From Sitta carolinensis (lineage: Eukaryota > Chordata > Aves > Passeriformes > Sittidae), in NCBI GenBank assembly GCA_032173965.1, contig CM063311.1, positions 1,234,271-1,298,270 of the forward strand: a stretch of 64,000 nucleotides of DNA. Reading direction: 5' to 3'. Below the pieces are notes generated by a model that was not told the DNA's origin, did not search any database, and worked only from the letters and a program-made list of their open reading frames with translations. Numbering within the stretch: the first letter of the stretch is position 1; every line of letters begins with the position of its first letter. Below, one piece after another: positions 1 to 64,000 of the stretch. The translations under genes were made by a program, and so were the position numbers.

Positions 1-194
1 CACGGGGGGGTCCCCGTGTCCCCAGGGGAGGCCCGAGGGTCGCCAAGGTCCCTGGATGGGGGTCCCCGTGCTCCCGGGGGTCCCAGAATGGAGAGGTCCC
101 GATTCCCCTGGGGAGATCCCAGTTGCCCTGGGGGTGTCCCCAAGCCCAGGGGGATTGTCCCCAAGCCCAGGGGACTGTCCCTGTCCCCCCTCAC

Positions 195-306
195 CGCAGT
201 GGGCCAGCAGGTCATTGTGGAAGTCCAGCAGCTCGTCTCGGATGTCCCCAGGCACCGGACACTCCTCGTCCTCAGCTCCTCCCTTGTACTGCATCAGCAT
301 GTTGAT
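195..306 (-). CDS. RYR1: RYR1 exon 37, last RYR1 exon in the window
   Basis: 112 nt, [20 protein letters not shown] then [17 protein letters not shown], ending in phase 1 before a GTGAGG donor. The transcript continues beyond position 1. Confidence 0.95.
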
Positions 307-62752: not shown

Positions 62753-64000
62753 CTGGGGAGGGGGACACCGGAGATCGGGGGGGGGTCCTGGGGGGTCCCC
62801 GGGGGTCCCACCAGAGCTCAGGGGGTCCCAGGGGGGTCCGGGGGCGGGTCCCAGAGGGTCCCCGGGGGTCCCACCAGAGCTCAGGGGGTCCCAGGGGGAT
62901 TCTGGGGGTCCCACCAGAGCTCAGGGGGTCCCAGGGGGGTTCTGGGGGGTCCCAGGGTGTCCCACCAGAGCTCAGGGTGGTCCTGGGGGTCCCAGCGGGG
63001 TTCTGGGGGGTCCCAGAGGGTCCCTGGGGGGTCCCAGGGTGTCCCACCAGAGCTCAGGGGGGTCTGAGGGGTCCCAGGGTGTCCCTGGGGGTCCCAGAGG
63101 GTCCTACCAGAGCTCAGGGTGGTCCTGGGGGTCCCAGCGGGGTTCTGGGGGGTCCCAGAGGGTCCCTGGGGGGGGGGGGGTCCCAGGGTGTCCCTGGGGG
63201 TCCCAGAGGATCCTACCATAGCTCAGGGAGGGGTCCAGGGGGGTTCCAGGGGGTCCCACCAGAGCTCAGGGGGTCCCAGGGGGGTCTGGGGGTCCCACCA
63301 GGCTCTGGGGGGTCCGGGGGTCCCAAGGTTCAATTTTTTTTCATTTTCCCACACGTCCGCGTCCACCAATATTCAATTTTTTTCATTTTTCCCAGAGGTC
63401 CCCGTCCCCAATAATTCAAGTGTTTTTTTCATTCCACAACTCTCCTTCCAGAAAATTAAAATTTTTTTTACATTTTCCCACAACTCCTCCCTCCTGGATA
63501 ATTCAATTTTTTCACATTTTCCCACAACTCCTCCCTCCCACATAATTCAATTTTTTCACATTTTTCCACAACTCCTCCATAACTCATTTTTTTTTTTTTT
63601 TTTACCATCCCACCCCCTCCCTCCCACAACCCCATCTTTATTTATTTTTATTTTTTTTTTTTTTTTTAATTATTTCCGTTACAATCCTCCCGTTTTCCTC
63701 CGGGATTAAAAAAAAAAAAAAAAAAAAAGAAAGAAAGCGGGCACGAGGAAAAAAGAAGCAAAGAGAGGAAAAAAAAAAAAAGGGGGGGGGGGTTACTTAC
63801 AGCTGCCGGGGGGGGGGGTCCCCAAAGCAGCCCCCCAATCCTGGGGACCCCTCTGGGGGGGCTGCTCTTACCCGCGGCTGCTCCCGGCGCGCCCCGGCTC
63901 CTGCGGCACAGGCGGAGCCAGAGTCACCCCGAGACCCGACACCGAGACCCCCGAGTCACCCGAGTCACCCGAGACCCCCGGAGTCACCCGGAGTGGGGAG
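62753..64000. repeat. HNRNPL intron at the right edge: GAGCTCAGGGGGTCCC array, T-rich repeats, poly(A/T)
   Basis: 62800-63300 has CCACCAGAGCTCAGGGGGTC units. 63325-63600 has CAATTTTTTTCATTTTCCCA units. Long T runs at 63585 and 63645 and an A run at 63708. On the minus strand, 63801-63900 has candidate splice sites but no recognised exon. Confidence 0.85.

Follow-up and report, generated by a model that had tools for sequence, protein, structure and literature searches.

The closest described counterpart of the structures reported here is found on the dot chromosomes of the chicken, which were described in general with the complete chicken genome (PMC9974502) and on which Hron et al. (2026, Genome Biol Evol; PMC12954441) recognised "sequence stuttering". 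Where the edge of an exon is copied together with its splice site, these authors speak of "exon stuttering", which they report for 236 introns in 115 chicken genes, with 190 of the introns located on dot chromosomes. In that work more than 90% of the copied exon sources lie within 1 base of the exon border, intron length is highly variable between individual chickens, and the intron repeats of one gene, PHF8, were verified in raw nanopore data; the mechanisms on which the authors speculate are replication stress with G4 structures and meiotic mispairing. A more distant parallel is the potato RdRp gene, in which an intron was gained by tandem duplication across an exon-intron border (PMC4974935). 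As in the present case, the junction-spanning duplication carried splicing signals along, although in potato a new intron was created, whereas here existing introns hold the copies.

Here we analyse a stretch of 64,000 nucleotides of Sitta carolinensis (the window; C37:1234271-1298270), which lies within a contig of 1,592,854 bases in a genome of 1.03 Gb and 252 contigs. GC content ranges from 0.60 to 0.73 in 26 of the 32 bins of the window, compared with 0.44 in one sample taken elsewhere on the same contig, and TRF returned 538 rows. Chromosomes were compared by means of single 10-kb samples from 17 contigs, which represent single places rather than averages: TRF cover was 0-0.028 in all eight samples from contigs of at least 11 Mb, 0.12-0.41 in five samples from contigs of 3.2-7.2 Mb and 0.69-0.80 in four samples from contigs below 2 Mb. 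Fourteen stretches of the window (its first 60 kb) and its flank gave values of 0.55-0.82, so that for contigs below 2 Mb overall the same range holds in 18 of 18 samples, 14 of which are the window and flanks. The size, GC content and repeat load of the contig fit an avian dot chromosome.

Four genes were found in the window, all on the minus strand. Spliced alignment placed RYR1 coding exons 1-37 as modelled, the 5′ part of the gene, at 195..31466; the remainder of RYR1 extends to the left of the window and was located in the flank. An LGALS4-like galectin gene with 8 modelled coding exons occupies 36037..46106 (its linker exon near 40117-40257 is uncertain), ECH1 with 10 modelled coding exons lies at 47063..56031 (spliced alignment and a solved-structure check), and the seven 3′ coding exons of HNRNPL lie at 57092..62752, with the 5′ exons to the right of the window. 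The joined N-terminal exons of RYR1 match PDB RYR1 over 498 aa with an E value of 2.7e-274. Among solved structures, galectin-9 is the top full-length match of the galectin and each of its halves matches galectin-4; the identities of HNRNPL and ECH1 were likewise checked against solved structures.

Exon models were obtained by spliced alignment to human proteins, followed by hand editing, and gave 58 introns and 116 junctions to be tested in the window. The replication set was drawn from the flanks (60 kb on the left, 20 kb on the right), which contain most of the remaining RYR1 and 5′ HNRNPL exons, and comprises 66 introns; neither the initial piece of the membrane part nor the interval separating the two RYR1 pieces was used, and one HNRNPL exon with a doubtful donor was retained. 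A gene model without frame steps broke up several conserved exons and was replaced by one that allows steps of 1-2 bases, of which 13 were needed across 9 of the 37 RYR1 window exons (6, 8, 15, 20, 23, 24, 26, 28 and 29 as modelled); the ECH1 model likewise needs steps of one or two bases. We take the frame steps in both genes as probable consensus errors in G/C runs, and because the window part of RYR1 needs 13 of them, copy numbers and single bases are uncertain. Hand editing removed two spurious HNRNPL exons (63482-63299 and 62982-62915), extra galectin linker exons, a false split in RYR1 exon 35 and, in the flank model, spurious exons starting at 33472 and 33263 (flank coordinates) together with the surrounding intron. 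The galectin exon 2 donor (45522-45523) is GC in the edited model, the sole non-GT site among the 58 donors, which may be real or a base error. The longest of the 124 tested introns, at 8.2 kb, is the HNRNPL intron before exon 62752-62681 (C37:1297023-1305228).

Junction copies were sought by a screen modelled on that of Hron et al., in which every exon is compared with its own introns at a threshold of 42.1 bits, and by a junction-spanning test that requires at least 8 aligned bases on either side of the junction. In the window the former returned 34 exon-edge copies involving 15 of 116 exon ends and 14 of 58 introns, with the nearest source starting at the exon border (minimum distance 0) for all 15 ends and with no opposite-strand matches; shuffled introns gave four matches, the best of which reached 30.2 bits against the threshold of 42.1. 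The junction-spanning test found 41 copies at 19 of the 116 window junctions; the corresponding controls were empty, with copies in 0 of 348 tests against non-neighbouring (distal) introns and 0 of 464 against dinucleotide-shuffled introns. Replication in the flank gave 21 of 132 junctions copied at a score of 30 and 23 at a score of 20 (distal control 0/264, shuffled control 0/264). Over window and flank, 40 of 248 junctions are copied in 85 copies, with a median copy spacing of 169, and about one exon edge in six is caught in repeats together with its splice site. The exonic part, taken as the largest per junction, has a median of 33 bases over the 40 junctions and a range of 8-92. The presence of junction copies in these introns, noticed in an earlier note on this DNA, is therefore confirmed: all 18 junctions listed there have border-spanning intronic copies. 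The note had extended its statement to all four genes, which is correct for RYR1, the LGALS4-like gene and HNRNPL but comes down in ECH1 to a weak case at the exon 2 acceptor (54905..55238) with only 8 matching exon bases.

All of the junction arrays lie on the minus strand. Among the RYR1 donors, that of exon 6 is accompanied by four decoy donors with 37 exon bases (25789..26443), that of exon 12 by four with 43 exon bases in three and 8 in one (22019..22605), that of exon 20 by three with 15-29 exon bases (14798..15694), that of exon 21 by two with 24 exon bases (13932..14274) and that of exon 30 by one in a 69-base unit (5106..5240), while the exon 28 donor is situated within a 102-base tandem unit present in 5.5 copies (6639..7195). 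The RYR1 acceptors with decoys are those of exon 2 (two, 24 exon bases; 29238..29606), exon 20 (one, 19 exon bases; 15866..16229), exon 24 (two, 21 exon bases; 11589..12147), exon 26 (three, 17-28 exon bases; 9568..10120), exon 27 (one, 37 exon bases; 8042..8206) and exon 32 (one, 33 exon bases; 3354..3530). In the galectin gene, copies of the exon 3 acceptor hold 21-41 exon bases (44405..44834), and the two decoys of the exon 4 acceptor differ in their exonic breakpoints (28 and 36 bases; 42766..43085). HNRNPL exon 61089-60797 is copied at both ends, with one decoy acceptor of 33 exon bases (61057..61211) and decoy donors of 69-70 exon bases (60503..60865); the acceptor of exon 60178-60057 has one decoy with 46 exon bases (60133..60299), and that of exon 58586-58385 has four with 23-33 exon bases (58554..59313).

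These arrays correspond closely to what has been described in chicken, and the pattern, for which the earlier note knew of no standard name, thus already has one in sequence or exon stuttering (PMC12954441). In both cases imperfect direct repeats of local origin, tens to hundreds of bases long, fill introns, and a lateral exon part is copied with its splice site into the adjacent intron, in direct orientation and with its source at the border. The median exon part is 36 bases in chicken and 33 here by another measure. A paralogue elsewhere in the genome is free of the repeats in both species: PHF2 in chicken and, in a small sample here, one of two RYR paralogues detected, which lies on a contig of 43 Mb; in 10 kb of it with 6 modelled exons, the same threshold gave repeats in 0 of 5 introns, and none of the 10 junctions is copied. 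The two studies differ in gene set and assembly, and a like screen affects 14 of 58 introns here against 190 of 5,572 annotated dot-chromosome introns in chicken; allele length variation was measured in chicken, whereas the present data consist of one assembly. What we add to that description is a test of seeding, the shared breakpoints within arrays and the fate of the decoy sites. The main text of PMC12954441 contains neither "seed", "breakpoint" and "founder" nor RYR1, which says nothing of its supplements, and we accordingly make no claim of novelty for these points.

Direct repeats within the same intron cover 82% of the 46,863 intronic bases of the window and 80% of those of the flank, compared with 0.3% for inverted repeats in the window, and TRF periods have a median of 41 (10th-90th percentile 14-147). 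Ordinary intronic minisatellites and VNTRs are likewise head-to-tail direct arrays; the present repeats differ from them in this density, in their extent over whole genes and in their inclusion of coding edges. Beyond 150 bases into the window introns cover is 0.90-0.94, and it declines towards the exons: on the donor side from 0.94 at 150-200 bases to 0.31 in the first 10 intron bases and 0.16 in the last 10 exon bases, and on the acceptor side from 0.91 deep in the intron to 0.28 in the nearest 10 intron bases and 0.22 in the 10 exon bases beyond the border. The 66 introns of the flank give a profile of the same shape. Introns shorter than 300 bases make up 32 of the 124, and only one of these 32 contains any repeat. 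Array edges on the donor side cluster at +1 to +8 (14 of 45 in the window and 14 of 47 in the flank, by hand count); there the array runs directly up to the donor, and the repeat next to the exon departs from its sister repeats at or close to the splice signal. Selection on the donor would most simply explain the pile-up, although breakage just behind the donor would fit as well.

G-quadruplex motifs cover 25% of intronic bases on the sense strand and 13% on the antisense strand; the corresponding values after a single mononucleotide shuffle are 5% and 3%. Because repeats inflate such cover, the link to G-quadruplexes is suggestive only. Of 45 expanded introns, 34 have a G-rich sense strand, and the 13 short introns have a median skew of -0.03. 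Sense-strand G-richness is compatible with a transcription-linked process. Inspection by eye for microhomology at the exonic breakpoints gave nothing clear.

The copies of one array mostly leave the exon at the same base and run into the same foreign flank, and in some arrays they share substitutions that are absent from the exon. Among the 21 multi-copy arrays of window and flank, exonic length is identical in 10, within 4 bases in 5 and more discordant in 6, several of which, judged by eye, would owe the discordance to decay or small indels. The same non-exon base occurs in at least two copies at 13 exonic columns in 9 arrays, where a rough formula predicts about 0.6 from separate captures; a base common to the copies yet not to the exon could also result from a later change in the exon. 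The other exonic columns of the 21 arrays comprise 22 single changes and 686 columns equal to the exon. Seven of the 21 arrays have no exonic substitution and are thus silent on descent, and five have single changes only, including a two-copy array that carries 5 of them. The 15 bases beyond the breakpoint were compared for 11 window arrays, not counting ECH1. Each array's best-scoring pair of copies reaches 8.5-15; pairs taken from different arrays have a 95th percentile of 7, which 22 of the 32 within-array pairs surpass, the other 10 being no better than between-array pairs. Scores of copy against exon beyond the breakpoint are 2-8 in the window arrays. Since breakpoints and flanks are shared, and some substitutions are private to the copies, most arrays have probably captured an exon edge once, in a single founding event, and then been amplified copy from copy. 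The clearest exception is galectin exon 4, whose copies have two exonic breakpoints, which requires either another capture or a subsequent deletion. We infer the order of events within arrays from the sequence of one assembly.

The earlier note had also described the splice sites within the copies as near-identical decoys, and GT or AG is indeed intact in 39 of 41 window decoys and in 82 of the 85 copies of window and flank. Identity of the splice core is 0.97-0.98 among window decoys and that of bases within 10 exon bases 0.92-0.99, and the exonic part has a mismatch rate of 2.3% over the 85 copies. On this sequence comparison, the GT and AG of decoys appear to be retained at roughly the background rate, and the decoys look neither purged nor favoured, as if neutral. 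Scored by a matrix that was derived from the true sites and is biased towards them, 12 of 18 decoy donors and 9 of 23 decoy acceptors do at least as well as the true site. With sites so nearly identical, splicing must tell them apart on some basis other than the core of the site.

We consider it likely that the window displays exon stuttering on an avian dot chromosome, arising from position-blind local repeats, occasional capture of junctions, amplification and selection at splice signals. A local direct-repeat process would fill introns, which were probably once short, with minisatellites, without regard to where exons start, and occasionally a founding duplication would happen to span a splice junction. 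Such a tandem duplication might come about by unequal exchange or replication slippage, perhaps aided by G-rich structure. Because a direct tandem duplication leaves the junction attached to the exon body intact, with the extra copy going into the intron, the event would be tolerated. The captured unit, consisting of exon edge, splice site and intron, would then be amplified within the intron, copy from copy, and arrays would extend to the splice signals and mostly end there because the signals and exons are under selection. Splicing would normally use the exon-attached site. Direct duplication in compact introns would thus be enough to account for exon edges in arrays.

The earlier note had gone further and suggested that minisatellites start preferentially at exon-intron borders, perhaps because G/C runs beside GT and AG slip. 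The 40 copied junctions, far above the shuffled and distal controls, would agree with this suggestion, as would the concentration of copied sources within 1 base of the border in chicken (PMC12954441); copies that span a border must touch it, however, and the chicken figure is therefore no test of preference. Within the introns themselves junctions prove to be the least repeated part. When random mid-intron points at least 140 bases from any junction were scored in the same way as junctions, 115 of 135 were copied in the expanded introns of the window compared with 19 of 90 junctions of the same introns, and 119 of 141 compared with 21 of 94 in the flank. The outermost repeated base within 60 bases of a junction was on the exon side in 49 cases and on the intron side in 89 (hand count, window and flank), and the exonic parts vary from 8 to 92 bases. 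A rough position-blind placement model, in which founder units with at least 15 exon bases count as captures, predicts border capture for 37% of units of TRF period if introns are compact and 8% if they are 883 bases long. The 18 captures observed against 127 non-overlapping TRF arrays, about 14%, fall between these values and require no junction preference, though just 6 of the 127 extend 10 bases or more into an exon by TRF's own array limits. Units with the hand-collected spacings of the junction arrays (median 145.5) give 93% in compact introns and 25% at 883 bases, which makes capture easy and favours neither side. Preferential seeding at junctions is not supported by these observations, and we regard it as improbable.

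It is very unlikely that the copies are collapse or expansion errors made in assembling GC-rich repeats. The 13 frame steps in 9 of 37 RYR1 window exons do indicate poor consensus quality, and copy numbers may be wrong, but the copies are identical neither to one another nor to the exon, the units possess their own flanks, and the pattern affects 40 of 248 junctions in four genes and 0 of 10 on the larger contig; in chicken, moreover, the PHF8 repeats were found in raw nanopore data (PMC12954441). Likewise very unlikely, in our estimation, is the retention of arrays as functional decoys, that is, as alternative donors or acceptors that add in-frame peptides. With ECH1 left out, 16 of 38 decoys are spaced by a multiple of 3, and 7 of these 16 are open, as in the 102-base unit of RYR1 exon 28; the 16 of 38 are no clear excess over the third expected by chance, however, only 7 of the 38 are usable in frame, and GT and AG are retained no better than neighbouring bases. 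Position-blind repeat formation with occasional capture of a junction remains our preferred account.

With the present analysis, a phenomenon that received its name in 2026 is seen in a further assembly, and in RYR1, HNRNPL and a galectin-4-like gene. The analysis also narrows the mechanism, in that junctions look like bystanders and most arrays seem to hold one capture of an exon edge. The modelled parts of RYR1 in window and flank contain 31 junctions with near-identical competing splice sites, and RYR1 is thus a muscle gene in which the choice of the spliceosome among identical sites is directly testable. Intron length on dot chromosomes varies between individuals in chicken (PMC12954441); were some decoys used, expansion of RYR1 arrays could thus give heritable in-frame insertions of peptide (after exon 28, for instance, each 102-base unit would supply 34 residues), the minisatellite acting as a length-variable coding reserve, but we hold this to be decidedly improbable. 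In a milder form, the arrays may be natural experiments showing that attachment to the exon, and not site sequence, sets the choice among identical sites. On a practical level, annotators working on birds should bear in mind that an intronic copy of part of an exon is not necessarily an exon that was overlooked.

RYR1 and the galectin gene adjoin on the same strand, and repeats alone were seen between them (31466-36037); in human, MAP4K1, EIF3K, ACTN4 and CAPN12 are located between these two genes. The spacer at 32556-35924 consists mostly of two large AT-richer arrays with units of 22-45 bases and a GC content of about 0.39-0.53, whereas the introns are GC-rich. A coding minisatellite is present in RYR1 exon 35 (898-1178), where 4.4-4.6 in-frame units of 57-60 bases encode KAIEAGE and runs of glutamate.
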